Shown here piece after piece: positions 29,599 to 47,715 of a DNA stretch of 64,000 nucleotides. Location: the NCBI RefSeq assembly GCF_001941425.1, contig NZ_CP009244.1, forward strand, positions 744,001 to 808,000. The letters are read 5' to 3'. The notes beneath the pieces are model-generated. The model searched no databases. It was not told where the DNA came from and worked only from the letters and a program-made list of their open reading frames with translations. This DNA comes from Corynebacterium ammoniagenes DSM 20306. Lineage in GTDB: Bacteria; Actinomycetota; Actinomycetes; Mycobacteriales; Mycobacteriaceae. A program made the translations under genes and the position numbers. Position 1 is the stretch's first letter. Every line of letters begins with the position of its first letter.

Positions 29599-29623
29599 CA
29601 CCAGGTGATTTGGACCCAGTACT

Positions 29624-29661: not shown

Positions 29662-29689
29662 TAGTCATATACACCGGCAGGAAAGAATT

Positions 29690-30933: not shown

Positions 30934-30954
30934 ATCGCGACAAGGAGTTCGGCT

Positions 30955-32553
30955 CTAGCTCGGCTCCCACATCTTGAAACGGGTTTCCAACACCACGACG
31001 TTGGGTCCAGACTCTGCAGAGAGTGCATCGCTGAGCACTACCTGCAGATTCTCTGGCGTGGCCGTGGTTGCCGGCACTTTGAAGGACTCCGCGAGTTTCA
31101 CAAAATCCGGGCGGGCTAACTCGGTGGCCGTGGCGGTGCCGAAGGCATCGTTCATGTATTCGCGCAAGATTCCGTATCCGCCGTCATCGATAATCAGCCA
31201 GGTCACGGGCACATTATGCTGCACCGCGGCCGCTAGTTCCGAGGTGGAATACAGCGCGGAACCATCGCCGGATACCGCAAAGGTGCGTGTGCCCACGCCC
31301 AGCGCACCGCCGTAGGCTGCGGGAAAGCCGTAGCCTAATCCGCCCGCGCCTTGGGCTGAGTGGAAACCGCCGTCTTTTCCGTCCCACGTATTCCACGCCC
31401 AGTACGCAGCAATGGTCATATCCCAAAAGGTGGGCATCTCATCCGGGACCGCCTGGCGAATAGCGTCCATGACGTGCTGTTCATGTTCTAAGCCTGCAGC
31501 GTCCATGCGCTCGGCAACCTTGGCATTGACGGTGGCGGCAGTCGTCGCGCCGCCATGCGACGCTGGCTCCACAGCCGGTAATAATTGTGCGAGGAAGGTG
31601 GAAATATCCGCACGAATCCCAAGGCCAGGATGGTTGGAGGCTAAGACTTTGGCTTCCGCATCTACTTGAATAATGGTGCCTTGTGGCTGCAAGGTGTAGT
31701 AATTGGAGGTCACTTCACCGAGAGAACTTCCCAAGACCAATAGCGTATGGGCATTGGCTAATAGGTCGGTAACGTGGCGGTTTTCAATAAAATGCACGGC
31801 CAGCGGGTGGTTTCGCGGAATCGCGGTATTGCCGCCGACAGTGCACACCACCGGGGCATCAATCTTTTCCGCCAGCTCGGCTAGAAGTTTTCCGGCACCG
31901 GATCGTCGCACGCCACCGCCGGCCACGATGACAGTCGATTGGGCATTGATCAGCTCCGCAGCTTGGGCTACCAGGGCAGGAGCAGCTTCCGGTTGGTCCA
32001 CGGCCATCGCCGGAATACCAGTGGGAAAGTCTTGGGCTTCTAAGAGGATATCCTGGGGAATCTCTACCCAGACGGGGCCTTGAGGTGCGGTCATCGCTAA
32101 GCGATAAGCATCATCAAGCGTGCTCGGGATTGCCGCCGCACGCTGCACCGTTGCCTGGTATTTGGTGACATTGCGCACGGATTCTTTCTGCTCATCCAAC
32201 TGATGCAACATACCTTTGCGCCGCGCACCCAGGCCCGCGCGGGGAATTTGCGAGGAAATCACAATCATCGGCACGCCCGTGGCATATGATTCCTGCAAAC
32301 CAGCTAGTGAGGTCAGCGCGCCGGGCCCGGTGGACAGGAAAAGTGCGGCAGGCTTGCCAGTGGCGCGGGTATAGCCATCGGCAGCAAAAGCCGCATTATT
32401 TTCCACGCGGCTGGAATAAAAGTGCAGGGGGCTGCGCGAGAGGGCATCGAAAAGCCCCAGCGCATGTTGGCCAGGAATGCCAAAAACATCCGTAATACCT
32501 AGCGCTTGCAGGGTTTCAACGACCACATCACCGCCATTGCGCGTACTCATCAT
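30955..32553 (-). CDS. ThDP-dependent 2-oxo acid decarboxylase/synthase (possible 2-ketoarginine decarboxylase, AruI-like)
   Basis: This 532-residue thiamine-diphosphate enzyme has the PYR domain with catalytic glutamate in SRVENNAAFAADGYTRA (about residue 50) and the PP domain with GDGSALYSTSELAAAV...IDDGGYG. The central domain lacks obvious FAD-binding features. The SD AAGGAG precedes two consecutive ATGs; the second (32550) is better spaced. It lies 5 bases after the agmatinase-family gene, so the two are one operon. In the arginine transaminase pathway a related enzyme turns 2-ketoarginine into 4-guanidinobutyraldehyde, which after oxidation is hydrolysed by an agmatinase-family enzyme to GABA. 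That role is inferred from the neighbours; a generic acetolactate-synthase-like activity remains possible. Confidence 0.7.
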   Translation of the reverse strand: MMSTRNGGDVVVETLQALGITDVFGIPGQHALGLFDALSRSPLHFYSSRVENNAAFAADGYTRATGKPAALFLSTGPGALTSLAGLQESYATGVPMIVISSQIPRAGLGARRKGMLHQLDEQKESVRNVTKYQATVQRAAAIPSTLDDAYRLAMTAPQGPVWVEIPQDILLEAQDFPTGIPAMAVDQPEAAPALVAQAAELINAQSTVIVAGGGVRRSGAGKLLAELAEKIDAPVVCTVGGNTAIPRNHPLAVHFIENRHVTDLLANAHTLLVLGSSLGEVTSNYYTLQPQGTIIQVDAEAKVLASNHPGLGIRADISTFLAQLLPAVEPASHGGATTAATVNAKVAERMDAAGLEHEQHVMDAIRQAVPDEMPTFWDMTIAAYWAWNTWDGKDGGFHSAQGAGGLGYGFPAAYGGALGVGTRTFAVSGDGSALYSTSELAAAVQHNVPVTWLIIDDGGYGILREYMNDAFGTATATELARPDFVKLAESFKVPATTATPENLQVVLSDALSAESGPNVVVLETRFKMWEPS

Positions 32554-32558
32554 TCTCC

Positions 32559-33560
32559 TTATTTGCCGCTCGCCGCGTTGGCACGCAGGTCCGCCATGAG
32601 CGTAATCAGGTCATAAGCCACGTGCGATGCCGCGATACCGGTTATTTCCGCATGGTCGTAGGCAGGGGAGACTTCCACAAGATCCGCGCCGACAATATTT
32701 AATCCACGCAGGCCACGAATGATTTCTAGCAGCTCACGAGAAGTCAGCCCACCAGCTTCCGGCGTACCCGTGCCGGGAGCATGCGCAGGGTCGAGGACGT
32801 CGATGTCCACAGAAATATACAGCGGTCGTTTGCCAACACGGTCTCGCAGCTTGTCGATGATTTCATCCACACCCTGCCGAAATACGTCCGAGGAAGTGAC
32901 AATGCCAAATCCAAAGCGGCGGTCATCTTCTAAATCCTTCTTGCCATACAGCGGACCGCGAGTACCGACGTGGCAGATGCCTTCGGTATCTAAGATGCCT
33001 TCTTCCACAGCGCGACGAAACGGAGTGCCGTGGGTGTAGTCCGCGCCGAAGTAGGTATCCCAGGTATCGAGATGCGCATCGAAATGCAGCAAAGCAACCG
33101 GGTCTTTCGCCCGTGCCGACGCCGCACGCAGCAGCGGCAGTGCGATGGTGTGATCGCCGCCGATAGTCATCAAGGACGATCCATCCTCGGTCAGATCCAA
33201 AGCATCTTGTTCAATGGCCTCGATAGCTTCATTGATATTGAAAGGGTTGATGGCCATATCGCCGGCATCAACCACCTGCGTTTGCGCGAACGGGGAGGTA
33301 TCCGTCGCCGGATTATAAGGACGCAAAAGACGCGACGACTGCCGCACATGATTGGACCCAAAACGCGCGCCGGGGCGGTACGACACTCCGGAGTCAAAGG
33401 GCACGCCCACGACCTTAATATCAGCGGAGCGGTCTTCAGTTTCAATATCGCGCAATCGCGGCAAAAGCGCATAGGTGGATTCGCCGCTATAGCGCGGGAC
33501 CAGAGCAGAGTTCACGGGGCCGACGTGGCCGCCTTCTTCAACACGGGGAGTCTCTAGCAT
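32559..33560 (-). CDS. Agmatinase-family ureohydrolase (agmatinase or guanidinobutyrase)
   Basis: This 333-residue manganese ureohydrolase releases urea from a guanidino compound. All metal-binding blocks are present: GGDHT at about residue 146, [10 protein letters not shown] at about 168, and [20 protein letters not shown] at about 250-270 (sequence broken here into its parts: [16 protein letters not shown]). The N-terminus with a long YRPGARFG loop fits agmatinase, guanidinobutyrase and guanidinopropionase equally. The neighbouring ThDP enzyme and gabT favour 4-guanidinobutyrate to GABA plus urea. It is the first gene of a two-gene operon, 34 bases below the broken XRE-cupin regulator on the same strand. 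Confidence 0.82.
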
Positions 33561-34333: not shown

Positions 34334-35914
34334 ATGGACTGGCCAAACATTGCGGTTTTACTTCTCTACCTAGTCGGCATGCTTGCCTTCGGAGTATGGG
34401 GATCGCGGCGAATCACAAATACCGGTGACTACCTGGTTGCCGGAAGAAACCTGGGAGGTGTGCTTTATACCGGCACCATGGTGGCGGTTGTTTTAGGTGG
34501 TGCCTCTGCGGTCGGCGGAATTGGATTGGGCTATACCTATGGCATTTCCGGGTTTTGGCTGGTTACCGCCATTGGCGTCGGCGTTTTAATTTTGAGCCTA
34601 GCCTTCGCACCTGCATTGCAACGGTTGCGCATTTTCACGGTGTCGCAGATGTTGACGTTGCGCTACGGTGTTGAATCCACCCAGGCATCATCGCTGATCA
34701 TGCTGGCGTATACCTTGATGTTGGCCGCGACCTCCTCTGGCGCGTATGCCTCGGTCTTTGTGGTGCTCTTTGGATGGGAACGTTGGGTTTCCATCCTCGT
34801 TGGTGGCGCGGTCGTTCTGGTCTATGCCACGGTCGGCGGCATGTGGTCGATTACCTTGGCGGACATGGCGCAGTTTATTGTCATGACCGTTGGCTTCTTC
34901 GTGTTGATGCTGCCAATTTCTCTCTCCCGCGCTGGCGGCTGGTCTGGACTGCACGACCGCTTGGATTCCGAATTTTTCGATATCGGTGGCATGGGACTGC
35001 AATCGATCATCACTTATTTTGTCATTTACACTCTCGGTCTTCTCATCGGCCAAGACATCTGGCAACGCGTATTTACCGCGAAAACCCCTGGTGTTGCCCG
35101 GTGGGGCGGTACCGCAGCTGGCATCTACTGCATCATCTTCGGTGTAGCTGGGGCGATCATCGGCATGGCCGCTGCGATCTTGTTGCCTGGTATTGAAGTA
35201 CGCGATGATGTCTTTGCATCTGTTGCGCTCGAGGTACTTCCCGCAGGTATCGGCGGCATTGCGCTGGCAGCCGGGGTAGCAGCCATGATGTCTACTGCTT
35301 CGGGCGGATTGATCGCCGCAGCTACCGTGCTCCAAGCAGATGTTATTCCACTGTTGAAAGGAATGTCTGAAAAGCGCGGACCACGCAAGCTCAGCCCGAT
35401 GGAGGTTGTGAAAGTAGCGGATGCTTCTGCGGCACGTGCAGAACAGGCTGAAGAAGATGTCAATATCAACCGCCGGTGGGTTCTAATCTTCGGTGTGCTC
35501 GTCTTATTTATTGCCATGGCTGTTCCCGATGTAGTTGCAGCACTGACCATCGCTTATGACATTTTGGTAGGTGGACTGCTGGTAGCCATCATCGGTGGTT
35601 TGGTCTGGAAGCGTGGCACGGGCGCTGGTGCTACGTGGGCGATGGTAACCGGGAGTTTGGGCACGCTGGTCACCATGGGTATTTTGGAACTTTTGGCAGA
35701 GAACCGGTTCGACGGTGTCTTCGCTAATGAACCGATCTACGTGGGATTAGCACTCTCCGCGGTGACCTATATTGGAGTGTCCCTGGCCACCAAGCCTACT
35801 GACCCAGAGGTACTCGCAGCGTGGCTCAAGCGCACTAAAGAAGGCGCGCCTTCCTTGGAACAAGTCGAGGAAGACGCGCGCGATATTGAAATGGAATTCG
35901 CCGAGGAAATCTAG
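34334..35914 (+). CDS. Sodium:solute symporter (SSS family)
   Basis: This 526-residue transporter has about thirteen membrane segments. It shows the SSS N-terminal SRRITNTGDYLVAGRNLGG (a charged loop after helix 1), GGASAVGGIGLGYTYGISG, TVSQMLTLRYG, and the central YATVGGMWSITLADMAQF signature. The C-terminus is cytoplasmic and acidic. It would import an organic solute with Na+; given the divergent XRE-cupin gene and the ureohydrolase operon, agmatine, guanidinobutyrate, putrescine or an amino acid are likely cargoes. AGGA precedes ATG 34334 by 8 bases. Its last 4 bases overlap the convergent aminotransferase gene. Confidence 0.82.
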   Translation: MDWPNIAVLLLYLVGMLAFGVWGSRRITNTGDYLVAGRNLGGVLYTGTMVAVVLGGASAVGGIGLGYTYGISGFWLVTAIGVGVLILSLAFAPALQRLRIFTVSQMLTLRYGVESTQASSLIMLAYTLMLAATSSGAYASVFVVLFGWERWVSILVGGAVVLVYATVGGMWSITLADMAQFIVMTVGFFVLMLPISLSRAGGWSGLHDRLDSEFFDIGGMGLQSIITYFVIYTLGLLIGQDIWQRVFTAKTPGVARWGGTAAGIYCIIFGVAGAIIGMAAAILLPGIEVRDDVFASVALEVLPAGIGGIALAAGVAAMMSTASGGLIAAATVLQADVIPLLKGMSEKRGPRKLSPMEVVKVADASAARAEQAEEDVNINRRWVLIFGVLVLFIAMAVPDVVAALTIAYDILVGGLLVAIIGGLVWKRGTGAGATWAMVTGSLGTLVTMGILELLAENRFDGVFANEPIYVGLALSAVTYIGVSLATKPTDPEVLAAWLKRTKEGAPSLEQVEEDARDIEMEFAEEI

Positions 35915-37044
35915 CTTTCAGCAAAGTAGTCGCGGATGATGCCAATGCCGCGTTGGATGTCATCTTGCGAGGCGGCGAAAGACAGACGGATGTGGCCTTC
36001 AGCATCTGGGCCGTATTCGGCGCCGGCGCGAACAAGGACTCCGCGATCGGCTAAGTCGGCTGCTACCTGGGAGGAGTCTTGTCCAGTGTCATAAGCAAAG
36101 AAGGCGTAGAAGGCTCCTTCGGGCTGTACTAAATGGATGTGGGGGACATCGTTAAGCAAGTGCACCACGAGATCGCGACGCCGCCGGTATTCTCCCAACA
36201 TTGGGGCAAAGGTCGTTTCCGGCAACTGGATGGCAGCCAAGGCCGCAAGTTGTGCGGGCTCGGAGACGGAACCATTAAAGGTGCGGTGAAATTGCGCAAT
36301 CGCCGCGATTAGCTCCTGGTCACCGGCAACATAGCCCACGCGGAAGCCCGTCATGCAGTACTTTTTGGAAAAAGTCTGCACGTACAACGTGCGTTGCTGC
36401 AATCCCGCTACTTCCAGCGCGGAGGTAAAAGCAGCTTCGGTATAGGTCAGGGCAGCGTAGGCTTCGTCGGAGACCACGATGGTGTCCGTGCCTTCGAGCA
36501 ACTGCGCAAGCTGTTCTAGTTCCTCGCGTGTGTGCACGATGCCATTGGGATTCGACGGGTTGGAAAAGACCACCATCTTCGCGCCCTGGAGCGCGACAGC
36601 GAGCTTGTCGAAATCAAAGTGCAGGTCTGATCCCATCGGCACAAATTCCACAGTGCCGCCGGCTAAGACCACTTGGTCGGCATACAAAGAATAGGCCGGC
36701 TGGGGGATAACTACCTTGTCACCAGGTTCAATCAGCGCGAAGAATATCGCGCCCAACCCACCCGTTGCGCCGTGGGTGACCACCACATTATTGCGGTCCC
36801 ACGATGCGGGGCGAGCGGGAAGTGCCTGCAGGAGGGCATCGCGAAGCTCTGCTATGCCATGCTGATCGGTGTAGTTGACCCGGCCTTGCTCAACGGCCTG
36901 CACGCTAGCGTCGATGACTTCCTGCGGCGGGGAGAAATCTGGTTCCCCCAGCGCCAAGGACACCGCCCCGGGTGGAACCACTCCTAAAGGCGGGCGAAGA
37001 GAGGCGGCACGTTGGGCAAGGATGCGGTGAGCGATGGGGGACAT
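35911..37044 (-). CDS. Class I aminotransferase (candidate 2-aminoadipate aminotransferase)
   Basis: This 377-residue fold-type I PLP aminotransferase resembles aspartate aminotransferases. Visible are GEPDF near residue 33, YTDQHGIAELR, NPSNPNG at about 161, SDEAYAALTY with the cofactor Asp/Tyr, the Schiff-base lysine in TFSKKYCMTGFRVGY at about 227, and the carboxylate-binding arginine in HIRLSFA. It is third in an operon with a sodium:amino-acid symporter and a binding protein, divergent from the GntR regulator of the DUF1338 operon. It therefore fits conversion of 2-aminoadipate to 2-oxoadipate. The alternative is arginine:pyruvate transamination for the neighbouring guanidino pathway. 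AAGGAA precedes ATG 37044. Confidence 0.72.
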   Translation of the reverse strand: MSPIAHRILAQRAASLRPPLGVVPPGAVSLALGEPDFSPPQEVIDASVQAVEQGRVNYTDQHGIAELRDALLQALPARPASWDRNNVVVTHGATGGLGAIFFALIEPGDKVVIPQPAYSLYADQVVLAGGTVEFVPMGSDLHFDFDKLAVALQGAKMVVFSNPSNPNGIVHTREELEQLAQLLEGTDTIVVSDEAYAALTYTEAAFTSALEVAGLQQRTLYVQTFSKKYCMTGFRVGYVAGDQELIAAIAQFHRTFNGSVSEPAQLAALAAIQLPETTFAPMLGEYRRRRDLVVHLLNDVPHIHLVQPEGAFYAFFAYDTGQDSSQVAADLADRGVLVRAGAEYGPDAEGHIRLSFAASQDDIQRGIGIIRDYFAES

Positions 37045-37065
37045 GCAATTCCTTAAATCGGGAGG

Positions 37066-37932
37066 TTATTGGATTTCAGAGAGATCGCCAGGGGTTGCTT
37101 CTTCGATGGAGTCCAAGTCTCCGAAGTATTCGTTTAATATCTCGTCGAGCTGGCCGGAGTCCTGCATCTCCGTCAGGACATTGTTGACGGCTTCAACCCC
37201 GGCGGTATCTCCTTTTTGCAGGCCGATTCCGTACCACTCATTAGAAAAGTGAGAACCATCAGACTTGGTCATATCCAGGACTTCAAATTCGCCGTCGTAC
37301 TGTCCAGCAAAGCCCGCCAGAATCGGCGCATCGGAGGTCATGGCATCCACGTTGCCTTGGGATAAGGCTTCGATACAGCTAGAGGTTGTGTCATATTCCT
37401 GCAACTGAACCGCAGGAATCTCTTCCTTAATCCGCTGGGCCGGCTTGGAACCGGCACTGGAACATAAAATCTTGCCGTCTAAATCATCTAAGGACTCAAT
37501 CGCGGAGTCATCACTGCGCACCAAAAGCGCCTGGTGGGTCAACAGGACAGGGCCTGCGAAGTCGACTTCTTCCATGCGGTCGGGGGTAATGGAGTAACCG
37601 CCTTGAATGAGGCTGACTTCGCCATTGCGCAATAAGGTCTCGCGCTGGGCGGCAGGAGTTTCCCGATATTCAATATTCGGTGGAGTCCACCCATTTTCTG
37701 CCGCGATGGTTTCCACAACGTGGTTGGCAATTTCGACTTCAGCGCCGGTAAAGCTTCCGTCGCCTTCGCGCAGGCCGATGCCCGGCTGGTCGAATTTCAC
37801 GCCAATGGTGATATTGCCTGATTCGATGGTATCTAAAAGCCCTTGTTCTCCAGAGGAAGTAGAACACGCTGATAGCGATAGCCCGAGAATGACCATCCCG
37901 GTGGCCAGGGTGCGAGGCGTGGACATGATCAT
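37066..37932 (-). CDS. Polar amino acid-type substrate-binding lipoprotein
   Basis: This 288-residue SBP family 3 protein has a lipoprotein signal ending in the lipobox LSLSAC (about residues 17-22) and a mature domain with GVKFDQPGIG, GAEVEIANHV, EVSLIQGGYSITPDR and FAGPVLLTHQALLVR. Such proteins bind glutamate, lysine/arginine or similar amino acids for an ABC importer, but no partner permease or ATPase is next to it, so it may serve a distant transporter. ATG 37932 and 37926 are both possible. It follows the symporter stop by 3 bases. Confidence 0.78.
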   Translation of the reverse strand: MIMSTPRTLATGMVILGLSLSACSTSSGEQGLLDTIESGNITIGVKFDQPGIGLREGDGSFTGAEVEIANHVVETIAAENGWTPPNIEYRETPAAQRETLLRNGEVSLIQGGYSITPDRMEEVDFAGPVLLTHQALLVRSDDSAIESLDDLDGKILCSSAGSKPAQRIKEEIPAVQLQEYDTTSSCIEALSQGNVDAMTSDAPILAGFAGQYDGEFEVLDMTKSDGSHFSNEWYGIGLQKGDTAGVEAVNNVLTEMQDSGQLDEILNEYFGDLDSIEEATPGDLSEIQ

Positions 37933-37935
37933 CTC

Positions 37936-39483
37936 TTAGCTTCTTTCTGTATTTTCAATGACTTTGGACTTGCTGCCCATGAGGTTCACCCGTTCATTTT
38001 CTGCAACGGGTTCGACTTCACCAGCGGCCACGGACTTGCGGTAGCCGGCGATTTCCTTGCGCAGCGGCTTGGCCAAGAGGTAGATGCCCAGCAGATTCGG
38101 TACAGCAACAAGGAAGAAGGTGGCATCGGAAAAGCGCACCACGGTGTCTAGGGAGACGGAAGCACCGACAACAATCATGATGATGTAGACGACGTTGTAG
38201 ATATTGCGTGCCAGCTTGCTGTCATTGAAGATGTAGGCGAAGTTGACCTGGCCGTAGTAGCAGTAGGACAAGACCGTGGAGAACGTGAACAAGATAATGC
38301 AAGCGGTCAGAACGTAGGTAAAGCCATAAGAGACAGTGGCAAAGGCATTGGTGGCCAAGGTGATGCCATCGGCGCCTTCATTGAGGTGTTCACCAGTGAC
38401 GATGATGGCAATCGCGGTAAGGCTACATACAATGACGGAGTCCAAAAATGGCTCCCATGCCGCAACCAATCCTTCTTCTGCCGGACGACGGTTTTTGGTA
38501 ACACCGTGTGCCAACGCTGCGGTACCAACGCCGGCGACGTTGGAAAATAGTGCTCGCTGAATACCGATGATGGCTACGCCTAAGATGCCGCCGGAGATAC
38601 CTTCTGGGGTAAACGCACCTTGGAAAATCGTCACGATAGCACCAGGGATAGCGGTGAAGTTAAACGCCAGCACGATGAAGACGGCAATGGCATATAGCAC
38701 CGACATGACGGGAACGAGGCGGCTGGTGGCATTGGCGATGGATTGAATACCGCCAACAAGCACAATGGCGGCGGGAATCGCGATGGCGATGCCAACGATC
38801 CAGCCGTTGTTGTACAAGAAGCTGTCTTCACCACCGGTTATATCAGTCAAGTGCATGGCTACCTGGTTGGCCTGGAAGATATTACCCGCGCCCATAACAG
38901 CCAGCGCCATGCCGATGGCGTAGAAATAGCCTAAGGATAAACCGAGTTTCGGCTTGCCAAGGGATTTGAGTCCGTACTCCAAAAAGTACATGGGGCCAGC
39001 GGCGACCGTGCCATCGTCGTTAACTCGGCGAAACATCTGGCCCAAGGTGGCCTCGGCGAGCTTAACCGCCATGCCGAGCACACCCGCGGCGGCAATCCAA
39101 AAGGATGCGCCGGGGCCACCTAGGGTAATCGCGACTGCGACGCCGGCGATATTGCCCAAGCCGATGGTGCCGGCAAGTTCTGTGGCAAAGGCTTGGAAAC
39201 TGGTCACCTGACCAGGATCTGACTTCTTTGCCAAAAGGCCGCGGACGACGCGGATTGCTTGTTTTGCGTCTTTGATGGGGCGTACCCGCAGGTAGACATT
39301 ACAAAAGATGCCACCGGCGACGAGCCACACCACGACGAGGGGGAGGTCTGCGCCAAAGACGGGAACGGAGAAGAACACTACGGCTTCAAGGAAGTCCACA
39401 AACGGTCCGAAGACCGATTGGATTGCGCCATCGATGCCGCTGGCTTCCTGCGCAAGAATCTGGGTTGTAATTATGGTACTCAA
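37936..39483 (-). CDS. Sodium:alanine/glycine symporter family protein (AlsT/AGCS)
   Basis: This 515-residue AGCS-family transporter carries SFQAFATELAGTIGLGNIAG, GGPGASFWIAAAGVLGMAVKL, the GPMYFLEYGL motif and SNVAGVGTAALAHGV. It has about eleven membrane segments and moves a small neutral amino acid with Na+ in known members. Here, as first gene of the aminotransferase operon and divergent from the GntR gene, it may import lysine, pipecolate, aminoadipate or alanine. The apparent start is TTG 39483 with AAGG eight bases upstream; a start further inside is possible. Confidence 0.82.
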   Translation of the reverse strand: MSTIITTQILAQEASGIDGAIQSVFGPFVDFLEAVVFFSVPVFGADLPLVVVWLVAGGIFCNVYLRVRPIKDAKQAIRVVRGLLAKKSDPGQVTSFQAFATELAGTIGLGNIAGVAVAITLGGPGASFWIAAAGVLGMAVKLAEATLGQMFRRVNDDGTVAAGPMYFLEYGLKSLGKPKLGLSLGYFYAIGMALAVMGAGNIFQANQVAMHLTDITGGEDSFLYNNGWIVGIAIAIPAAIVLVGGIQSIANATSRLVPVMSVLYAIAVFIVLAFNFTAIPGAIVTIFQGAFTPEGISGGILGVAIIGIQRALFSNVAGVGTAALAHGVTKNRRPAEEGLVAAWEPFLDSVIVCSLTAIAIIVTGEHLNEGADGITLATNAFATVSYGFTYVLTACIILFTFSTVLSYCYYGQVNFAYIFNDSKLARNIYNVVYIIMIVVGASVSLDTVVRFSDATFFLVAVPNLLGIYLLAKPLRKEIAGYRKSVAAGEVEPVAENERVNLMGSKSKVIENTERS

Positions 39484-39587
39484 CTTCGGGCCTTTCTTGT
39501 TGATAAGGGAAGGAGTGCGGTGCCACGAAGGTCACGATTTGATGTGAGTTACAAAATCAGCGTGTTTGTGACGTGCACCTCATGATA

Positions 39588-39601
39588 GGTTATCGATAAC
39601 C
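39588..39601. promoter_or_regulatory. Candidate GntR operator, symporter/GntR intergenic region
   Basis: The perfect 14-bp palindrome GGTTATCGATAACC lies about 105 bases upstream of the symporter start and 134 bases upstream of the GntR start. Its 12-bp core GTTATCGATAAC recurs exactly upstream of the catabolic operon at 40558, which makes a common regulator likely. Confidence 0.65.
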
Positions 39602-39734
39602 CATAGGTGAAGTGTTTGCGAAAAGTTTCTTCTGTTGGGTGGGAAATTTATTACTGTGCCGGCGAAATTAACTCTCTAGAATCCGTCGGTAGCGAAGCGA
39701 TTTAATTTAAAGCAGGTTGAAGGAGCGTTCGAAG

Positions 39735-40445
39735 ATGACATCAAGCGAGGTATGGGCTCAACGAATTGAACAAGTTGGGCGGGAAGCCCCCATGGGGCAG
39801 GCAACGCTGAAGCAATCAACGCAAAACCTGATTAGGCAATTGCTCTTTTCCGGTGCGATGGTTCCGGGGGAGATTTATTCGGCGAATTCACTGGCCGCCC
39901 ACTTAGGGATTTCCAATTCGCCCGCACGCGAAGCGATGATGGCTCTGTCGTCGCAAGGGCTTTTAGAGCCGGTGCGCAACCGCGGCTTTCGTGTGGTGGA
40001 GCTATCTGCCCATGACCGTCACGAGGTCTACGAGTTGCGGGTGCTCATTGAGGTTGAGGCCGTGCGTCGTGCGGCGTTGCGCGAGCTTAGCGAGGAAGAG
40101 CTGGACCGAATTATTGGTTTAGCCGAGCATTCGGTGGAGGTGCTACCGGCCACGCCGGAGGATCCTGCGCTTCCATATTTAAACGCTGACCACGACTTTC
40201 ATATGGGGTTAGTGGATTTGATGCGAAATTCACGCTGGTCGACCATCGTGTCCGGCTTGCGCGATGAGTCGCGCGTGAATGGCGCCTATCGCCACTTGGA
40301 AAATAACCAAGGGTTGCACCATTCCGCGCAGGAGCACCTGGATATCGCGTATGCCGTGCGCGATGGCGATGCCGAACGGGCGGCGCAATTGATGATTAGA
40401 CACCTTGAATACTCTCGACCTCACGATTATCCAACTTCTTTTTAG
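39735..40445 (+). CDS. GntR-family (FCD/FadR-type) transcriptional regulator
   Basis: This 236-residue regulator has an N-terminal winged helix (LIRQLLFSGAMVPGEIYS, LAAHLGISNSPAREAMMALSSQGL, about residues 25-80 in two pieces) and a C-terminal FCD all-helical ligand domain with DHDFHMGLVDL and HHSAQEHLDIA, whose Asp/His residues bind a metal and ligand. ATG 39735 is chosen because AAGGAG lies 10 bases upstream; the in-frame TTG 39717 precedes that site. It sits between two divergent gene arms, both preceded by the same palindrome, and is the likely repressor responding to lysine, pipecolate, aminoadipate or a later intermediate. Confidence 0.85.
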   Translation: MTSSEVWAQRIEQVGREAPMGQATLKQSTQNLIRQLLFSGAMVPGEIYSANSLAAHLGISNSPAREAMMALSSQGLLEPVRNRGFRVVELSAHDRHEVYELRVLIEVEAVRRAALRELSEEELDRIIGLAEHSVEVLPATPEDPALPYLNADHDFHMGLVDLMRNSRWSTIVSGLRDESRVNGAYRHLENNQGLHHSAQEHLDIAYAVRDGDAERAAQLMIRHLEYSRPHDYPTSF

Positions 40446-40557
40446 TTGCTATTTCTCCTTCTTGACTCCCGGTATCTGCTCTAAACCTGCAGGTGTTGGG
40501 AGTTTTAAAATTTTCGCCACTCAAACCTATTGCGCAGATCACAAATCTAGGGTTAGA

Positions 40558-40569
40558 GTTATCGATAAC
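40558..40569. promoter_or_regulatory. Candidate GntR operator, upstream of lysine/aminoadipate catabolic operon
   Basis: The perfect 12-bp palindrome GTTATCGATAAC is identical to the core of the site at 39588 and lies 50 bases before the GTG start of the FAD oxidoreductase gene. A related half (GATAAC) follows directly at 40571, giving a locally repeated GATAAC pattern. Confidence 0.65.
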
Positions 40570-40619
40570 AGATAACTGGCAATAAGTGGCGCACGCCATA
40601 GGTGTGAAAGGAGGAAGAT

Positions 40620-41810
40620 GTGGTTGACGTAAAAGTGCCTCTCGTTCCGAGCTATACCCAGAGGCAGCCAGAGATCGCCAGCATTGTGATCATCGGCGGA
40701 GGAATCATGGGAATGAGTGCCGCCTGGCACTTAGCATCCCGTGGTGTCACCGGCATTGTCGTGGTGGAACAACATGAAATTGGTCGGGGTTCCTCCGCCA
40801 AACCCATGGGTGGAGTACGCGCCAATTTCTCTGACCCCATGAATGTCATTCTGGGCAAGCGATCCTTGGAATCTTTCCGCACCTGGAAAGAAGACTTTGG
40901 CACCAACCTGGAATTGGCGAAAGTCGGATACCTCTTTTTGGCACGTTCCGAAGAAGAAGTAGCCAACCTAGAAGAAGCCACCAAGACTCAAAATGAGTTG
41001 GGCGTGAACTCTTCCATGATTACTCCGGAGCAAGTCGCCGAAGTCAATCCATTTATTGACCCGAAAGCCATTCTTGCTGGCTCGCTTTCTCCCGATGATG
41101 GCTACGCCTGCCCGGCAGCAGCGGTGGAAGGCTACATGCGCGCTGCTGTTGAATTAGGTGTCACGGTCATGGACCACACGGAAGTTCTAGATATTGGCAC
41201 CTCCGGTGGAGCCATTGAATCCGTGACTACCCAGCGCGGAGTGATCCGCACCGAGCAAGTCATCTGCGCGGCGGGTGCGTGGTCCGCCAAAATCGGGGAG
41301 ATGGCTGGGCATACCCTTCCCGTGGTACCTGTTCGCCGGATGATCGGATTGACCACGCAGATGCCGCAGGCACATCCCACGGTTCCTTTTACCTTGGATT
41401 TGTCCACCACCATGTACATGCACAACTACTACAACGGCATGTTGCTGGGCATTTCACACCCACAAGAACCAAACTTCAATCGCGATTACAGCTTCGAATG
41501 GCTCGACGCCTTCAATTCAGCAGCCGAGGTTTTCGCGCCTAGTTTGCGCAACCCGCAGTTGGATTCCGGCTGGGCGGGATTTTATGAAAACACCCCGGAC
41601 CGCAATGCCATCATCGGTGCCTCTGAAAGCGTGTCTGGCTTTTACTACTGCACGGGATTTTCTGGACACGGGTTCTTGCAAGGTCCTGCCGCCGGCGAAT
41701 TCATGGCTGACATTGTCCAAGACAGACCATCATTTCTTCCGCACGATGGCTATTCCACCGCGCGGTTTGAACAAGATCTGAAATCTGTCATTGAAAAGAA
41801 CATCATCTAA
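40620..41810 (+). CDS. FAD-dependent amine oxidoreductase, DAO family (candidate L-pipecolate oxidase, AmaA-like)
   Basis: This 396-residue flavoprotein has the Rossmann FAD-binding motif VIIGGGIMGMSAAWHL near residue 22, GRGSSAKPMGGVRANF after it, ICAAGAWSAKIG in the middle and the late GFSGHGFLQGPAAGE, as in sarcosine oxidase, DadA and pipecolate oxidase proteins. Upstream of the DUF1338, aldehyde dehydrogenase and YdiJ-like genes it best fits oxidation of L-pipecolate to piperideine-6-carboxylate, which opens to aminoadipate semialdehyde. Another cyclic or secondary amino acid cannot be excluded. GTG 40620 follows AAAGGAGGAAG; the overlapping ATG 40618 hits a stop after four codons. Confidence 0.75.
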   Translation: MVDVKVPLVPSYTQRQPEIASIVIIGGGIMGMSAAWHLASRGVTGIVVVEQHEIGRGSSAKPMGGVRANFSDPMNVILGKRSLESFRTWKEDFGTNLELAKVGYLFLARSEEEVANLEEATKTQNELGVNSSMITPEQVAEVNPFIDPKAILAGSLSPDDGYACPAAAVEGYMRAAVELGVTVMDHTEVLDIGTSGGAIESVTTQRGVIRTEQVICAAGAWSAKIGEMAGHTLPVVPVRRMIGLTTQMPQAHPTVPFTLDLSTTMYMHNYYNGMLLGISHPQEPNFNRDYSFEWLDAFNSAAEVFAPSLRNPQLDSGWAGFYENTPDRNAIIGASESVSGFYYCTGFSGHGFLQGPAAGEFMADIVQDRPSFLPHDGYSTARFEQDLKSVIEKNII

Positions 41811-41845
41811 CCCCCAACCTGAATGTCGAGATTTAAGGAATAAGA

Positions 41846-43246
41846 ATGGCATTTCAAAAGACGTGGGAGCTTCGCGCCCGCTTTGCTCGTAGCCTCTCCG
41901 AGATGTACGGCGTGGAAGTTCCCGCCTACACCACCTTGGTGGAGGTTTCAGAGGCAGTTAATCAGGACTACATGGACAAGATGGGCGCGGAGGGCGAAAG
42001 GTTAGGCACCATTGGCCGAGTCACCGCCGAGCGCCACGGCGCCATTCGCGTCGGCTCCCCGCAAGAAATGGGACAAGTAGCCCAGGTCTTTGCCGGGTTT
42101 GGCATGTACCCCGTGGGCTTTTATGACCTGCGCGATGCCGCCAAATCTTCCGTGCCGGTGGTCTCCACAGCATTTCGCCCAATTGATAAAGAGGAACTAG
42201 CGAATAACCCTTTCCGCGTCTTTACCTCCATGCTGGCGGCCGATGACCCGCGCTTTTTCACCCCGGACTTACAAGAACGCCTGCAGAATTTCATCGCGCA
42301 GCGCCAGATCTTCTCTCAAGAACTGCTGAGTATCGCCGCCAAGGCCGCACGAGATGAAGGCCTTGAAGAAGCAGAGGCCGATGAATACATCAAGCTGGCG
42401 ACCGCAGCTTTTGAGCTTAACGATGAACCTATTGATGATCAGTGGTACCGCGAACTCGAGGCAATCTCGGCCGTTGCCAGCGATATTGGCGGCGTGCGTT
42501 ATACCCACATCAACCACCTGACCCCACGCGTACTCGATATCGATGATTTGTATGACCGGATGGAAGCCCGTGGAATCACCATGATTGATGAAATCCAAGG
42601 CCCACCGGATTGGGACGGCCCGGATATCTTGCTGCGTCAGACCTCATTCCGGGCTCTCGATGAAGAACGCACCTTCAAATTCGCGGACGGCACCGTCGGC
42701 CCCGGTGCGTTGCGCGTGCGCTTTGGCGAAGTCGAGCAGCGCGGCATTGCGCTGACGCCCCGCGGCCGGGAACTGTATGACTCCATGAACACCGAAGTCG
42801 ATGAGAAATTGGCAGCCGGCGCGGAGCACACACGCGTGGAAATCGCCCGTGGCATTTGGGAGCAGCACCTACCAAAGACGGAAAAGGGGCTGCGCGAACA
42901 GGGCCTGGGGTATTTCACGTATGAAGTCACCGGTTCCACCGACTCAGGGGAGTACGACGTCGAGCAGCTTATCGATGCCGGGGTGCTTGCACCGCAGCCC
43001 ATCGTGTACGAGGATTTCCTGCCTCGTTCTGCCGCCGGCATCTTCCAGTCCAACCTGAAAGAAGAAGGCACCCGTGACAATGAACAGCAAGGAGCGGACT
43101 ATGACATCGAGGCACTCTCACGCATCGTCGGTCGCGACATCGTGGAGCCGTATCAGCTGTACCGAGCCCAGGAAGAGGCCTCCTTGTTAGCCGCTGCTCA
43201 GCAGCTAGGAGTAACCATCCACCCCACACCAGCACTTCAGAACTAA
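41846..43246 (+). CDS. hglS: 2-oxoadipate dioxygenase/decarboxylase, DUF1338/HglS (YdcJ) family
   Basis: This 466-residue member of the DUF1338 (VOC-fold) family converts 2-oxoadipate, O2-dependently and with Fe(II), to D-2-hydroxyglutarate plus CO2 in characterised proteins. Family hallmarks are ERHGAIRVG (H64 and R68), MYPVGFYDL, STAFRPID, NPFRVFTSML, HINHLTPRVLDID (H221, H224), PDILLRQTSF and RFGEVEQRGIALTPRGR (E295/E297). The two histidine motifs and the glutamate should form the metal site. The neighbouring AmaB-like and D-2-hydroxyglutarate dehydrogenase-like genes supply the steps before and after, which strongly supports this reaction. The start ATG 41846 lies behind AAGGAAT. Confidence 0.87.
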   Translation: MAFQKTWELRARFARSLSEMYGVEVPAYTTLVEVSEAVNQDYMDKMGAEGERLGTIGRVTAERHGAIRVGSPQEMGQVAQVFAGFGMYPVGFYDLRDAAKSSVPVVSTAFRPIDKEELANNPFRVFTSMLAADDPRFFTPDLQERLQNFIAQRQIFSQELLSIAAKAARDEGLEEAEADEYIKLATAAFELNDEPIDDQWYRELEAISAVASDIGGVRYTHINHLTPRVLDIDDLYDRMEARGITMIDEIQGPPDWDGPDILLRQTSFRALDEERTFKFADGTVGPGALRVRFGEVEQRGIALTPRGRELYDSMNTEVDEKLAAGAEHTRVEIARGIWEQHLPKTEKGLREQGLGYFTYEVTGSTDSGEYDVEQLIDAGVLAPQPIVYEDFLPRSAAGIFQSNLKEEGTRDNEQQGADYDIEALSRIVGRDIVEPYQLYRAQEEASLLAAAQQLGVTIHPTPALQN

Positions 43247-43273
43247 CCACACTGTTGAAAGGAACCTATTTCC

Positions 43274-44797
43274 ATGGCTATCCAAACTCATGATGAACTT
43301 CTCACCACCATCAAAGACGCCCTGCAAGCATGCGGCTATGTCGGGGAACTCGGCGGCGGCAGCTTGCAAACCCGCACACCCATGACCGGCGAAGACCTCT
43401 TCGCTATTGAAGGCACCACCAAGGAACAGGCAACAGAGATGATTGCCCTAGCCGATGAAGCCTTCAAATCCTGGCGCGAAGTACCAGCCCCACGCCGCGG
43501 AAATGTGGTCAAGCGCTGGGGACAGCTGCTAGCTGAACACAAGCATGACCTCGGACTACTCGTCCAAATTGAGGCCGGCAAGTCCATCTCGGAGGCCGAG
43601 GGCGAAGTCCAAGAGATGATTGATATCTGTGACCTCGCGCTGGGACAATCCCGCATGCTCTACGGCAAGACCATGCCGTCCGAACGCCCCGGTCACCGCC
43701 TGATGGAAACCTGGCACCCCATTGGCGTTGTCGGCGTAATTTCCGCATTCAACTTCCCGGTAGCCGTGTACTCCTGGAATACTGCGAACGCCCTAGTCTG
43801 CGGCGATACTGTGGTGTGGAAGCCCTCGGAGATGTGCGCGCTTTCTGCTTTGGGCGCGCACGCCTTGCTCTCGCGCGCGATTGCCGATTGCGGCGAAGAC
43901 CAAAACATCAGCCAGCTCATCCTCGGTGACCGCAACGTCGGCGAAGTCCTGCTCGATGACCCTCGCGTGGAGCTAGTCTCCGCCACCGGTTCCACCCGCA
44001 TGGGCCGTGAGGTTGCACCTCGCGTGGCTTCCCGTTTCGGCCGCTACCTGCTGGAACTCGGCGGGAATAACGCTGGCATCGTCACGCCTTCTGCCGACCT
44101 CGACCTGGCGCTGCGTGGCATCGTCTTCGCTGCCGCCGGCACCGCAGGGCAGCGTTGCACCACCATGCGCCGGTTGATCGTGCACGAGTCTATCGCTGAT
44201 GAACTCGTGGATAAGATTGTCGCCGCTTACAAGACCTTGACCATTGGCGACCCGCGCGATGAGTCCGTCCTCGTCGGACCATTGCTGCACCAAGGCGCTT
44301 ATGACGATATGCAACAGGCGCTGAAGACCGCCAAGGAACAAGGCGGCGACGTACTCGTCGGTGGTGAGCGCGTGCTTGTCGATGACTCCGAGAAGTCCTT
44401 CTACGTCCAACCCGCCGTAGTGCGCATGCCGGAGCAATCCGACATTGTGCACAATGAAACCTTCGCGCCAATCCTCTATGTCATGACCTACTCTGACTTT
44501 AACGAGGCCATCGCGCTGCACAACGCGGTTCCACAGGGGTTGTCCTCTGCTATCTTTACCGAAAACAACTCGGAAGCAGAGATCTTCTTGTCGGCCTCCG
44601 GCTCTGACTGCGGTATCGCTAACGTCAACATCGGTACCTCCGGTGCGGAAATCGGTGGCGCATTCGGCGGTGAGAAGGAAACCGGCGGCGGCCGCGAATC
44701 CGGCTCCGATGCATGGAAGGCCTATATGCGTCGTTCCACCAACACCGTCAACTACTCCGGTGAATTGCCACTGGCTCAAGGAGTGAAGTTCCTCTAA
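43274..44797 (+). CDS. amaB: Aldehyde dehydrogenase, ALDH7/AmaB-like (2-aminoadipate semialdehyde dehydrogenase)
   Basis: This 507-residue NAD(P)-dependent aldehyde dehydrogenase has NFPVAVYSWN, the glutamate in LELGGNNAG (about residue 260), catalytic cysteine C295 in AGQRCTT, and the ALDH7-type C-terminal block IGGAFGGEKETGGGRESGSD (about 450-470) with AYMRRSTNTVNYS. This antiquitin/AmaB signature is linked to oxidation of 2-aminoadipate 6-semialdehyde to 2-aminoadipate in lysine breakdown. GAAAGGAA precedes ATG 43274. The stop TAA shares its last A with the ATG of the next gene (TAATG), coupling translation to the YdiJ-like enzyme. Confidence 0.84.
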   Translation: MAIQTHDELLTTIKDALQACGYVGELGGGSLQTRTPMTGEDLFAIEGTTKEQATEMIALADEAFKSWREVPAPRRGNVVKRWGQLLAEHKHDLGLLVQIEAGKSISEAEGEVQEMIDICDLALGQSRMLYGKTMPSERPGHRLMETWHPIGVVGVISAFNFPVAVYSWNTANALVCGDTVVWKPSEMCALSALGAHALLSRAIADCGEDQNISQLILGDRNVGEVLLDDPRVELVSATGSTRMGREVAPRVASRFGRYLLELGGNNAGIVTPSADLDLALRGIVFAAAGTAGQRCTTMRRLIVHESIADELVDKIVAAYKTLTIGDPRDESVLVGPLLHQGAYDDMQQALKTAKEQGGDVLVGGERVLVDDSEKSFYVQPAVVRMPEQSDIVHNETFAPILYVMTYSDFNEAIALHNAVPQGLSSAIFTENNSEAEIFLSASGSDCGIANVNIGTSGAEIGGAFGGEKETGGGRESGSDAWKAYMRRSTNTVNYSGELPLAQGVKFL

Positions 44798-47715
44798 TGT
44801 CTGCCGCATTGCCACAGCGCACCTTAAAGTTTGACCGCGTGGATCCATCCGTGTTCAAACGGATGGCGCGCTCTGGCATGCGCGAAGACATGACCACCCG
44901 CGCTGCCTATTCTTCAGATGCATCCATCTTTCGCCGCATTCCCAAAGCGGTGATTGAACCGAAATCGGTCGACGATATTCGCGATGGCATCATGATTGCC
45001 AAGCACCTCGGGTGGTCAGTTATCTCGCGCGGCGGCGGGACTTCTGTCGCGGGAAATGCGTTGGGCACGGGGTTGATTATTGATACCTCGCGCTATTTCA
45101 ACCGCATCCTCGACATTGATATCGAGAACCGCACCGCCACCGTGGAACCCGGTGTCGTCTGCGATGCGCTGCGCGATGCCGTCGCGGAGCACGGCCTGAC
45201 CTATGGCCCGGATCCCTCGACGCACTCGCGCTGCACCATCGGCGGAATGGTGGCCAATAATGCCTGCGGTTCCCACTCCGTCGCCTACGGCACGGCTGCC
45301 GAAAACCTCGTGTCCGTCACGGTCATGCTAGCTAATGGCGAAGAAGTCACGTTCGAGGGCGGGGGAGTCAGCGACGTAGGCATCGATAAGCAATTGCATG
45401 AGCTTGTCGATGCCCACGCGGACCTTTTTGCCACCGAACTTGGCCGCTTCCCGCGCCAAGTCTCTGGCTATGGCCTGCATTATTTTTTGGACAAGCACGG
45501 TTTTGACGCAGCCAAAGCGATTGCTGGTTCCGAAGGCACCGTCGGTGTGATTACGCAGATGACCGTGAAACTCGTGGAAGTACCTCGGGCAAAAGCACTG
45601 GCTGTGCTGGGCTTTGACACTGTCTACGATGCTGCAGCGGCGGCGTCGCAACTGCGCCTGCCCGGCGTTGCCACCATTGAAGGCATGGGTGGGGATTTGC
45701 TCGATGCTCTGCGCATGAAAAATGGTCAAGAAAACGCCGGCGAGGATCTCCCCGGAATCCGCAAAGGCATTCCCGCTGGTGGCTGGCTGTACTGCGAGGT
45801 CGGCGGGGATAGCGTCGACGAGGCAATCGCCAATGCCGAAAAGGTCGCCGCCACCATCGCAACCATTGACTCGGTGGTGGTGTCCGAGCCGCAGCAGATG
45901 CGCAAACTGTGGCACATCCGTGAGGCAGCCGCCGGCGTGGTCACGCGCTTGCCTGACGGTGGAGAAGCGTGGCCGAACTGGGAAGACTCTGCTGTACCAC
46001 CGGAAAACCTCGCCGATTACCTGCGGGACCTGTATGCGCTGATGGATAAATACAGCCTGCGTGGAATTCCTTTCGGCCACTTTGGCGAAGGCTGCGTGCA
46101 CGTGCGCATGTCTTTCGACTTTGGCACGGACGAGGGCATCCGAATCTTTGAAAACTTCATGAACGATGCCGCGGAATTAGTCGCCTCCTACGATGGTTCT
46201 TTGTCCGGGGAACACGGCGATGGTCGCGCCCGCTCGGCGCTGTTAGACCGCATGTACTCTTCTGAGATGCGCGAGGTCTTTGGCCAGTTCAAAGAGATTT
46301 TAGACCCCGATTCACTGTTTAACCCCGGCGTGCTCGTGGACCCCGATGAGGTCACCGATGGCCTGCGCATGGCGCCCGGTCAGCGCACATTTGAAATCAC
46401 GCCGGTGCATAAGTTCAGCCAGGACAAAGGCTCCATGGTCAATGCCGTCAACCGCTGCGTGGGTGTCTCCGCGTGCCGGTCAGAAGAAGATTCCATGTGC
46501 CCGTCGTTTCAGATCACCGGCGATGAAGTCCATTCCACCCGCGGCCGCGCACGCCTGTTATCAGAGATGTTCCGCGGCGAATCCGTCACCGATGGCTATG
46601 AGTCCAAGGAAGTCCTCGAAGCCTTAGACCTGTGTTTATCGTGCAAGGCTTGTGCCTCGGAATGCCCCGTCAACGTCGATATGGCGACGTACAAGTCGGA
46701 ATTTTTGCACAAGCACTATCAAGGAAAACTGCGCCCGGCGGCGCATTATGTCATGGGCTGGCTGCCGCTATTAGGACACATCGCGCACAAGATTCCACTG
46801 GCCCCGCGCCTGATTGACACCGCCATGCGCACCCCGGGATTGAAGAAGCTCATCGCGTTGCTCGGCGGTCTGGATACCTCCCGCTCGCTGATCCGCTTCG
46901 CACCACAATCCTTACGCAAGTGGCACAAGAAGCATAAGACCATCGAATCCACCAAGACCGTTGTGTTGTGGCCGGATTCCTTCAACGCCTCGCTGGAAAC
47001 CTCACCCGCTATTGCCGCGATCGAAGTACTGGAAGCGCTTGGCTACAACGTGGAAATTCCCCAGGAGTTTGTCTGCTGCGGTTTGACCTGGCATTCCACC
47101 GGTCAGCTGGATATGACCAAGCGCGTGCTGAAGCAGACAGCGAAAGTCATGCAGCCCTACTTGGACCGCGGCCTGACTGTTATCGGCGTGGAGCCGTCAT
47201 GCACGGTCATGTTGCACAATGAGGCAACAGAGCTTTCCGATGACCCCGTCATCGACAAGCTTGCCCAATCCACCGTGTCCTTTGCTGAATTCGTGGCGCC
47301 GCTGATCAAAGAAAAAGTCGATGCCGGCGAAATCCAACCTGCCAACATTAGTGCGCTGACCCAAGTTCACTGCCACGAGAAATCGCTCGGTGACCCGCAA
47401 CATTCCGCACAGCTTCTCGATGCCCTCGGCGTTTCCGAAGCCGACATCGAAACCGGCTGCTGTGGACTTGCCGGCAACTGGGGTTTTGAAAAGGGCCATG
47501 CCGAGCTATCCATGGCACTTGGCGAACGCGAGCTTTTCCCCAAGGTCCGCGATGCGGAAAAGAACAACCAGGCCGTCATCGCCGATGGCTTTTCGTGCCG
47601 CACCCACATCGGCGAAGGCACCGGCGTTGCGCCCAAGCACGTCGCGGAGATTGTGCGCGACGTGATGAAAAGCGAGTATTCGGGCGCGATGGATGTGGAA
47701 GGATCATTTTTCTGA
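44797..47715 (+). CDS. ydiJ: FAD/Fe-S D-2-hydroxyglutarate dehydrogenase, YdiJ-like
   Basis: This 972-residue fusion of a GlcD-like flavin dehydrogenase and a GlcF-like iron-sulfur/CCG module oxidises D-2-hydroxyglutarate to 2-oxoglutarate, passing electrons to the respiratory chain. The FAD domain (about residues 50-260) has RGGGTSVAGNALG and GPDPSTHSRCTIGGMVANNA, and the C-terminal FAD-oxidase part includes FGHFGEGCVHVRMSF and GSLSGEHGDGRARS. Cysteine clusters CVGVSACRSEEDSMCPS (from about 554) and CLSCKACASECP (from about 613) bind Fe-S centres, and two CCG motifs (CCGLTWHST, CCGLAGNWG) follow. Length fits YdiJ (about 1000). It is the last gene of the operon and uses the product of the DUF1338 enzyme. 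Confidence 0.86.
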   Translation: MSAALPQRTLKFDRVDPSVFKRMARSGMREDMTTRAAYSSDASIFRRIPKAVIEPKSVDDIRDGIMIAKHLGWSVISRGGGTSVAGNALGTGLIIDTSRYFNRILDIDIENRTATVEPGVVCDALRDAVAEHGLTYGPDPSTHSRCTIGGMVANNACGSHSVAYGTAAENLVSVTVMLANGEEVTFEGGGVSDVGIDKQLHELVDAHADLFATELGRFPRQVSGYGLHYFLDKHGFDAAKAIAGSEGTVGVITQMTVKLVEVPRAKALAVLGFDTVYDAAAAASQLRLPGVATIEGMGGDLLDALRMKNGQENAGEDLPGIRKGIPAGGWLYCEVGGDSVDEAIANAEKVAATIATIDSVVVSEPQQMRKLWHIREAAAGVVTRLPDGGEAWPNWEDSAVPPENLADYLRDLYALMDKYSLRGIPFGHFGEGCVHVRMSFDFGTDEGIRIFENFMNDAAELVASYDGSLSGEHGDGRARSALLDRMYSSEMREVFGQFKEILDPDSLFNPGVLVDPDEVTDGLRMAPGQRTFEITPVHKFSQDKGSMVNAVNRCVGVSACRSEEDSMCPSFQITGDEVHSTRGRARLLSEMFRGESVTDGYESKEVLEALDLCLSCKACASECPVNVDMATYKSEFLHKHYQGKLRPAAHYVMGWLPLLGHIAHKIPLAPRLIDTAMRTPGLKKLIALLGGLDTSRSLIRFAPQSLRKWHKKHKTIESTKTVVLWPDSFNASLETSPAIAAIEVLEALGYNVEIPQEFVCCGLTWHSTGQLDMTKRVLKQTAKVMQPYLDRGLTVIGVEPSCTVMLHNEATELSDDPVIDKLAQSTVSFAEFVAPLIKEKVDAGEIQPANISALTQVHCHEKSLGDPQHSAQLLDALGVSEADIETGCCGLAGNWGFEKGHAELSMALGERELFPKVRDAEKNNQAVIADGFSCRTHIGEGTGVAPKHVAEIVRDVMKSEYSGAMDVEGSFF

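Follow-up and report, generated by a model that had tools for sequence, protein, structure and literature searches.

A gntR-containing gene cluster of Corynebacterium ammoniagenes and a proposed route from L-pipecolate to 2-oxoglutarate

In Pseudomonas putida, D-lysine and pipecolate are degraded through AmaA, AmaB, HglS and the D-2-hydroxyglutarate dehydrogenase YdiJ, and a cluster of eight genes in Corynebacterium ammoniagenes DSM 20306 raises the question of whether a comparable route is encoded at a single actinobacterial locus, from which compound it would start and which enzymes would carry it. The cluster occupies positions 35911..47715 of the window, i.e., the whole 64,000-nucleotide stretch analysed here (contig NZ_CP009244.1, positions 744,001 to 808,000; the host genome is a single contig of 2.79 Mb). 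A preliminary description had interpreted it as a one-locus lysine/pipecolate pathway in a probable actinobacterium. Judging from its sequence, the locus is probably a GntR-controlled regulon leading from L-pipecolate to 2-oxoglutarate. The route itself is known chemistry, and curated models exist for the families of HglS and of the semialdehyde dehydrogenase. Within the reach of the tools used, the novelty lies in how the parts are combined: an oxidase from another branch, a dehydrogenase from another clade, an interchangeable aminotransferase or GDH-like enzyme and a shared candidate operator.

Pfam families were found above cut-off for all eight open reading frames (ORFs), and the four enzyme genes, the divergent arm and the intervening GntR gene were all present as first described, the host being indeed a Corynebacterium. 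The features are as follows:

35911..37044, minus strand: class I/II aminotransferase (Pfam Aminotran_1_2), proposed to act on L-2-aminoadipate
37066..37932, minus strand: family 3 solute-binding protein (SBP) with a lipoprotein-like start (SBP_bac_3), its presumed ligand being discussed below
37936..39483, minus strand: AGCS family amino acid:cation symporter (TIGR00835, 333.7 bits, cut-off 272.65)
39589..39600, no strand: palindrome GTTATCGATAAC, proposed GntR operator of the divergent arm (exact match; variants in relatives)
39717..40445, plus strand: FCD-type GntR regulator (PF07729 and PF00392 above cut-off; start TTG 39717 or ATG 39735)
40558..40569, no strand: palindrome GTTATCGATAAC, proposed GntR operator of the catabolic operon (exact match; 50 bp upstream of the DAO start)
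40620..41810, plus strand: DAO-family flavoenzyme (PF01266), proposed L-pipecolate oxidase/dehydrogenase
41846..43246, plus strand: HglS, 2-oxoadipate dioxygenase/decarboxylase forming D-2-hydroxyglutarate (PF07063; NF050083; residues H70, R74, H226, E294 and S403 present)
43274..44797, plus strand: L-piperidine-6-carboxylate / 2-aminoadipate semialdehyde dehydrogenase, ALDH7 type (NF050084)
44797..47715, plus strand: FAD/4Fe-4S/CCG flavoprotein, proposed as a D-2-hydroxyglutarate dehydrogenase apart from the YdiJ clade (Pfam domains, pocket arginine, co-occurrence with HglS); hereafter the last enzyme

The four plus-strand genes (DAO, HglS, ALDH and FAD/Fe-S dehydrogenase) are separated by 35 bp, 27 bp and finally a 1-bp overlap (TAATG), and are thus spaced as in an operon. 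On the minus strand, the symporter, binding protein and aminotransferase genes follow each other with spacings of 3 and 21 bp, and gntR lies between the two arms. In a near relative, Corynebacterium sp. J010B-136 (locus L002), the seven genes other than gntR are conserved with 82-91% identity, and GntR with 74%.

In the proposed pathway, the symporter (perhaps also the lone binding protein) would import pipecolate or 2-aminoadipate, the DAO enzyme would, judging by its context, oxidise L-pipecolate to piperideine-6-carboxylate (P6C), which opens to 2-aminoadipate semialdehyde, and the ALDH7 enzyme, assigned by a curated cut-off, would form L-2-aminoadipate. The aminotransferase may then yield 2-oxoadipate, as its mutual exclusion with a GDH-like enzyme suggests; HglS, with Fe(II) and O2, would convert 2-oxoadipate to D-2-hydroxyglutarate, in keeping with its family and catalytic residues; and the FAD/Fe-S enzyme would release 2-oxoglutarate, a role to which pocket residues and co-occurrence point. 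GntR is predicted to sit on GTTATCGATAAC at both divergent promoters and to be released by a compound of the pathway.

The central assignments rest on curated families. For the 41846..43246 product, profile search bore out the DUF1338/HglS identity given in the preliminary description (PF07063, E 1.5e-136), with 743.6 bits against NF050083 (cut-off 600) and 393.8 bits against the sister model NF049974 (below its cut-off of 550). The P. putida enzyme is reported to convert 2-oxoadipate to D-2-hydroxyglutarate, with His70, His226 and Glu294 binding the metal and Arg74 the far carboxylate of the substrate (PMC7286885). This triad and Arg74 are conserved in the window protein and in 95/95 rows compared (one for the window, 80 for loci and 14 for genome stretches, of which four repeat loci among the 80). 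By family and catalytic residues, the product is classed as HglS and would act on 2-oxoadipate. At the position of P. putida Val402, in the substrate loop, the 95 rows carry Arg (69, including the window), Lys (17), Ala (8) or Thr (1). The adjoining ALDH product scored 811.7 bits against NF050084 (cut-off 730), its closest solved chain being 6rtr (Pcd; E 1.1e-211).

The surroundings of HglS were compared in 91 deduplicated loci, made up of the window, the 80 best-ranking of 130 related stretches and, once four repeats had been taken out, ten more stretches from Corynebacterium; gene presence was determined by tblastn. ALDH7 was present at 79 loci, DAO at 44, the last enzyme at 33, a GDH-like enzyme at 32, lysine 6-aminotransferase (LAT) at 22, OCD-family genes at 11 and an aminotransferase of the window type at 6. 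DAO and LAT never occurred together (0/91, Fisher p 2.4e-8; likewise 0, p 1.1e-7, if only the 79 long-flanked loci are counted), nor did GDH-like enzyme and LAT (0 of 91). Genes of the OCD/mu-crystallin (cyclodeaminase/imine-reductase) family accompanied 11/44 DAO loci and 0/47 others; the one such protein scanned, from L005, had a Pip2C/Pyr2C reductase as its best model (180.4 bits, below the cut-off of 322). We read LAT and DAO as alternative suppliers of P6C, with the OCD-family proteins as putative sources of L-pipecolate. The last enzyme was found near 22/44 DAO loci. The complete set (DAO, HglS, ALDH, aminotransferase or GDH-like enzyme, and last enzyme) lay within the fetched span of 21/91 loci; the gathering of all steps at one locus, emphasized in the preliminary description, is therefore not unique to this genome. 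Among 242 Corynebacterium genomes, HglS (E ≤ 1e-3) was detected in 15 and DAO (E ≤ 1e-50) in 12, all within those 15, and an AGCS homologue (at least 59% identity) stood at 12/12 of the DAO-bearing loci. The strict operon of four genes, with the last enzyme directly after ALDH, was seen at 4/15 Corynebacterium HglS loci (the window, L002, L106 and L109), while at L104 another gene lies between the two. In some genomes only a capped share of the candidates was scored (three for the last enzyme, six to eight for the others), so that absence is less firm than presence.

The step from 2-aminoadipate to 2-oxoadipate appears to be filled in two ways. The window aminotransferase (E ≤ 1e-50) was found in 6/242 Corynebacterium genomes, all six with HglS, and a GDH-like (ELFV) dehydrogenase (E ≤ 1e-60) in six others, again all with HglS; the chance of zero overlap between six and six among 15 HglS genomes is 0.017. 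The GDH-like genes tied to HglS clusters, candidates for an L-2-aminoadipate dehydrogenase, are represented by:

L014:13175-14317, GDH-like (ELFV) dehydrogenase
L114:12835-13992, the same
L032:11450-12592, the same

We know of no description of such an activity for an enzyme of this type. The binding protein of the window scored 177.8 bits against TIGR01096 (below the cut-off of 256.35) and is alone, the cluster having neither an ABC permease nor an ATPase gene; a homologue with 55-56% identity adjoins HglS and the GDH-like gene at L112 and L113.

The last enzyme had been called YdiJ-like, which stood for domain layout and pocket and failed for family membership: against the YdiJ model NF049975 it scored 440.9 bits (the cut-off of 1350 being passed by the positive control, E. 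coli YdiJ, with 1727.9), and it is 26.5% identical to E. coli YdiJ, a reported D-2-hydroxyglutarate dehydrogenase (PMC9504171). The named proteins closest to it are mostly from C. casei (86%). In the human D-2-hydroxyglutarate dehydrogenase, Arg386, His434, His441, Glu475 and His476 are described as holding the metal and the lactate part of the substrate, and Thr390, Lys401, Tyr432 and Asn443 the far carboxylate, at which four positions D-lactate enzymes, yeast exceptions aside, carry hydrophobic or small residues (PMC7801405). The equivalents of the first five are all present in the last enzyme, a set that is not decisive for the substrate because D-lactate enzymes keep the same residues. At the Asn443 position, both the last enzyme and E. 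coli YdiJ have Arg, and at the Thr390 position Ala and Val, respectively; the corresponding pairs are Leu/Tyr in a host paralogue and Ile/Trp in the solved mitochondrial D-lactate dehydrogenase 8jdc. The human Lys401/Asn443 pair is lacking: because Trp plus Arg take these places here and Ala plus Arg in E. coli YdiJ, the pocket is of the YdiJ type and not of the human type, even though the protein falls in a separate clade. The pocket Arg occurs in 28/32 alignment rows (three structure fragments aside) and is missing from three rows of paralogue type; the row of L051 is misaligned and carries no information.

The Corynebacterium proteins group together in a tree of 31 rows (99/100). A second clade holds the HglS-linked last enzymes of other Actinobacteria (Micrococcales, Rhodococcus, Mycobacterium, Propionibacteriaceae; 91/100, not starred), and around it the program marks long branches as well as an open fork. 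Co-location with HglS therefore arose repeatedly or persisted through much divergence. Orthologues of the last enzyme (at least 58% identity, broken copies included) were present in 52/242 Corynebacterium genomes, i.e., in 15/15 with HglS vs. 37/227 without (p 1.6e-11), and lay at the HglS locus in 10 of those 15 and elsewhere in 5, so in many lineages the gene was brought to, or retained at, the HglS locus. A 44% homologue on the Rhodococcus ruber plasmid pYYL1.1 (L132, typed as conjugative) adjoins a gene annotated as hydroxyacid-oxoacid transhydrogenase. Such transhydrogenases form D-2-hydroxyglutarate, and this neighbour may be an independent hint at the same role for the last enzyme.

Common control of the two arms is suggested by the perfect palindrome GTTATCGATAAC, which is shared by both intergenic regions flanking gntR. 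In the ten Corynebacterium loci displayed, it or close variants persist while the flanks diverge. The GTTATMKATAAC form occurs three times in the host genome (control pattern 0); the third of these (1616623) was discounted as a regulon site since it sits inside an ORF reading like coaE, and the exact operator outside coding regions is confined to the two sites at this locus. A palindrome upstream of DAO (within 300 bp, one mismatch to either of two forms being tolerated) was found at 20/24 loci with this GntR (at least 46% identity) and at 1/19 DAO loci without it (p 2e-7), L025 being left out because the locus begins at the gene; the GntR-bearing loci lacking it are L006, L014, L020 and L022, and the converse case is L004. 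In the Nesterenkonia loci L005 and L020, HglS is preceded by a copy with no more than one mismatch; L020 also has a one-mismatch copy (14788) immediately ahead of the OCD start codon, which supports the inclusion of OCD in the same regulon. Exact sites occur in 11/12 Corynebacterium genomes with DAO, where 17/19 of them, in 10 genomes, are at this cluster; in G131 the exact site is elsewhere and G231 lacks one, and in both genomes the cluster carries one-mismatch copies. On these computed motif data, GntR is the predicted binder of the palindrome, with a pathway compound as its presumed ligand. In G110 (L141:7566-10035), two operator copies flank a GntR-AGCS pair with no HglS, DAO or ALDH7 in 17 kb; the symporter therefore belongs with the regulator, and the pair represents either a leftover reduced to the transporter or an independent deployment of the switch. 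The paired sites of G114 were set aside, being located in unrelated ORFs.

Several observations weigh against the proposed pathway. No pipecolate-forming gene was found in the cluster or, above a specific cut-off, among the genome proteins followed up. The DAO protein scored 79.6 bits against the L-pipecolate oxidase model NF050086 (AmaA; cut-off 600), so that of the equivalence first drawn only membership in the DAO family was upheld, and for the aminotransferase the 25 NCBIfam models shown, out of 78, all stayed below cut-off, so that it has no substrate-specific match. Both DAO and LAT are missing from 25/91 HglS loci, the last enzyme was near only 2/22 LAT loci, 3/15 Corynebacterium genomes with HglS lack DAO, and three (G131, G215 and G231) lack both aminotransferase and GDH-like enzyme. 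Exact palindromes are also found in 33/230 Corynebacterium genomes without DAO (39 sites), and the presence of the last-enzyme gene in 37 genomes without HglS means a wider or other role in the genus. The percent-identity thresholds for gene presence were chosen after a first look at the data, and the co-occurrence p values treat loci as independent despite shared ancestry.

The entry compound is where the alternatives mainly diverge. The DAO enzyme could act on another secondary amine that yields 2-aminoadipate semialdehyde (saccharopine or an N6-substituted lysine), which would suit both its matches, limited to broad SoxB/ThiO/N-methyltryptophan oxidase models with none of the 25 shown above cut-off, and the lack of a pipecolate-forming gene at the locus. 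We consider this fairly unlikely given that OCD/mu-crystallin genes are found solely with DAO and that the closest solved relative of the protein is 1y56 chain B (E 1.8e-64, against 3.9e-31 for the runner-up; residues 17-385 of 396 aligned), labelled sarcosine oxidase in the PDB table, which we take to be the beta subunit of the Pyrococcus horikoshii L-proline dehydrogenase. In this context, L-pipecolate appears the more fitting substrate. A pathway for L- or D-lysine with its first steps encoded elsewhere (a racemase or aminotransferase plus imine reductase, or another route) would agree with the part of HglS in P. putida D-lysine catabolism (PMC7286885) and with a weak OCD-family protein (L120:7893-8822) some 39 kb before the cluster. 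The host genome speaks against it: the best LAT match (TIGR03251) had 141.5 bits against a cut-off of 520.8; of three OCD-family proteins the two strongest pass as tyramine oxidase subunit B and the third reaches no specific model; the Ldh_2 protein is closest to sulfolactate dehydrogenase, below cut-off; and of five Sacchrp_dh matches two exceed the Pfam cut-off, a family that C. glutamicum also matches. Genome-wide searches for these four families (LAT, OCD, Ldh_2 and Sacchrp_dh) thus gave no specific lysine-entry enzyme, with lysine racemase, oxidase and decarboxylase families outside the search, and the exact operator at non-coding positions is restricted to this locus. From the one-locus lysine/pipecolate pathway proposed at the outset, the part running via P6C dehydrogenase and HglS to D-2-hydroxyglutarate and 2-oxoglutarate is retained and the lysine entry is not; we regard lysine as an unlikely substrate.

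Extracellular L-2-aminoadipate as the true substrate, with DAO and ALDH7 as accessories, draws on minimal loci of relatives (SBP-HglS-GDH at L112 and L113; HglS-GDH-last enzyme at L032), which suggest that stand-alone 2-aminoadipate modules may exist. For the window this seems quite improbable, as DAO, HglS and ALDH7 stand together in 12/15 Corynebacterium HglS loci and the palindrome lies upstream of DAO. Imported L-pipecolate is hence the better-supported entry compound, with 2-aminoadipate second. That the last gene encodes a D-lactate dehydrogenase placed here by coincidence would account for its distance from YdiJ (identity and bit score as above) and its occurrence in genomes without HglS, yet the Arg at the Asn443 position and the small residue at the Thr390 position are as in YdiJ and differ from 8jdc and the host paralogue, and all 15 HglS genomes have the gene, which makes this the least probable of the alternatives weighed.

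Functions can be put forward for testing in four vaguely named actinobacterial families (the DAO 'sarcosine oxidase beta', the FAD/Fe-S 'binding domain-containing protein', the class I aminotransferase and the GDH-like dehydrogenase), and a concrete candidate operator is supplied. The comparison suggests that the HglS route has interchangeable parts and serves pipecolate besides lysine. A broader proposal, which we hold to be evenly balanced, is that a pipecolate/2-aminoadipate regulon of modular build exists in Actinobacteria and includes three or more enzyme types not recognised so far (an L-pipecolate oxidase of the proline-dehydrogenase-beta branch, a non-YdiJ clade of D-2-hydroxyglutarate dehydrogenases and, in relatives, an NAD(P)-type GDH-family L-2-aminoadipate dehydrogenase replacing the aminotransferase). 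In Corynebacterium and some of the Micrococcales, this regulon would be governed by a single FCD-GntR/GTTATCGATAAC switch. No paper on a Corynebacterium HglS cluster was found by title or opening of the abstract, most subscription journals being outside this search, and we do not claim that it is unpublished.

Further upstream, window positions 28264-33560 encode a GabT-type aminotransferase (28264-29595) that passed two gamma-aminobutyrate (GABA) transaminase models and scored 344 bits against the 2-aminoadipate transaminase model NF049976 (below the cut-off of 650), a thiamine pyrophosphate (TPP) enzyme whose second-best model was 5-guanidino-2-oxopentanoate decarboxylase (below cut-off), and an agmatinase-family ureohydrolase that passed TIGR01230. 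Together they suggest a neighbourhood devoted to the conversion of arginine/guanidinobutyrate to GABA. In Mycolicibacterium (L039), the TPP enzyme and the ureohydrolase likewise have homologues near HglS.

Compared with known systems, the proposed route shares its chemistry with that of P. putida (pipecolate/P6C to 2-aminoadipate, 2-oxoadipate, D-2-hydroxyglutarate and 2-oxoglutarate), whereas the steps here share one locus and one candidate operator. Two of them use other protein branches, because the DAO enzyme fails the AmaA model and the last enzyme the YdiJ model, and the proposed 2-aminoadipate aminotransferase is of class I/II, with NF049976 absent among the 25 models shown of 78. Unlike 1y56 chain B, the DAO protein has no adjoining alpha-subunit or carrier gene, and a six-membered-ring substrate is proposed for it. 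The last enzyme resembles E. coli YdiJ (PMC9504171) in carrying its FAD and Fe-S modules on a single long polypeptide and in its pocket arginine, but with 26.5% identity and 440.9 of the required 1350 bits it belongs to a separate clade. In the actinobacterial LAT-Pcd lysine clusters, HglS adjoins P6C dehydrogenase as it does here, and the window proteins pass the same models (NF050083 and NF050084); the difference lies in the DAO enzyme, which takes the place of LAT, the two being found at 44/91 and 22/91 loci, respectively, and at none together.

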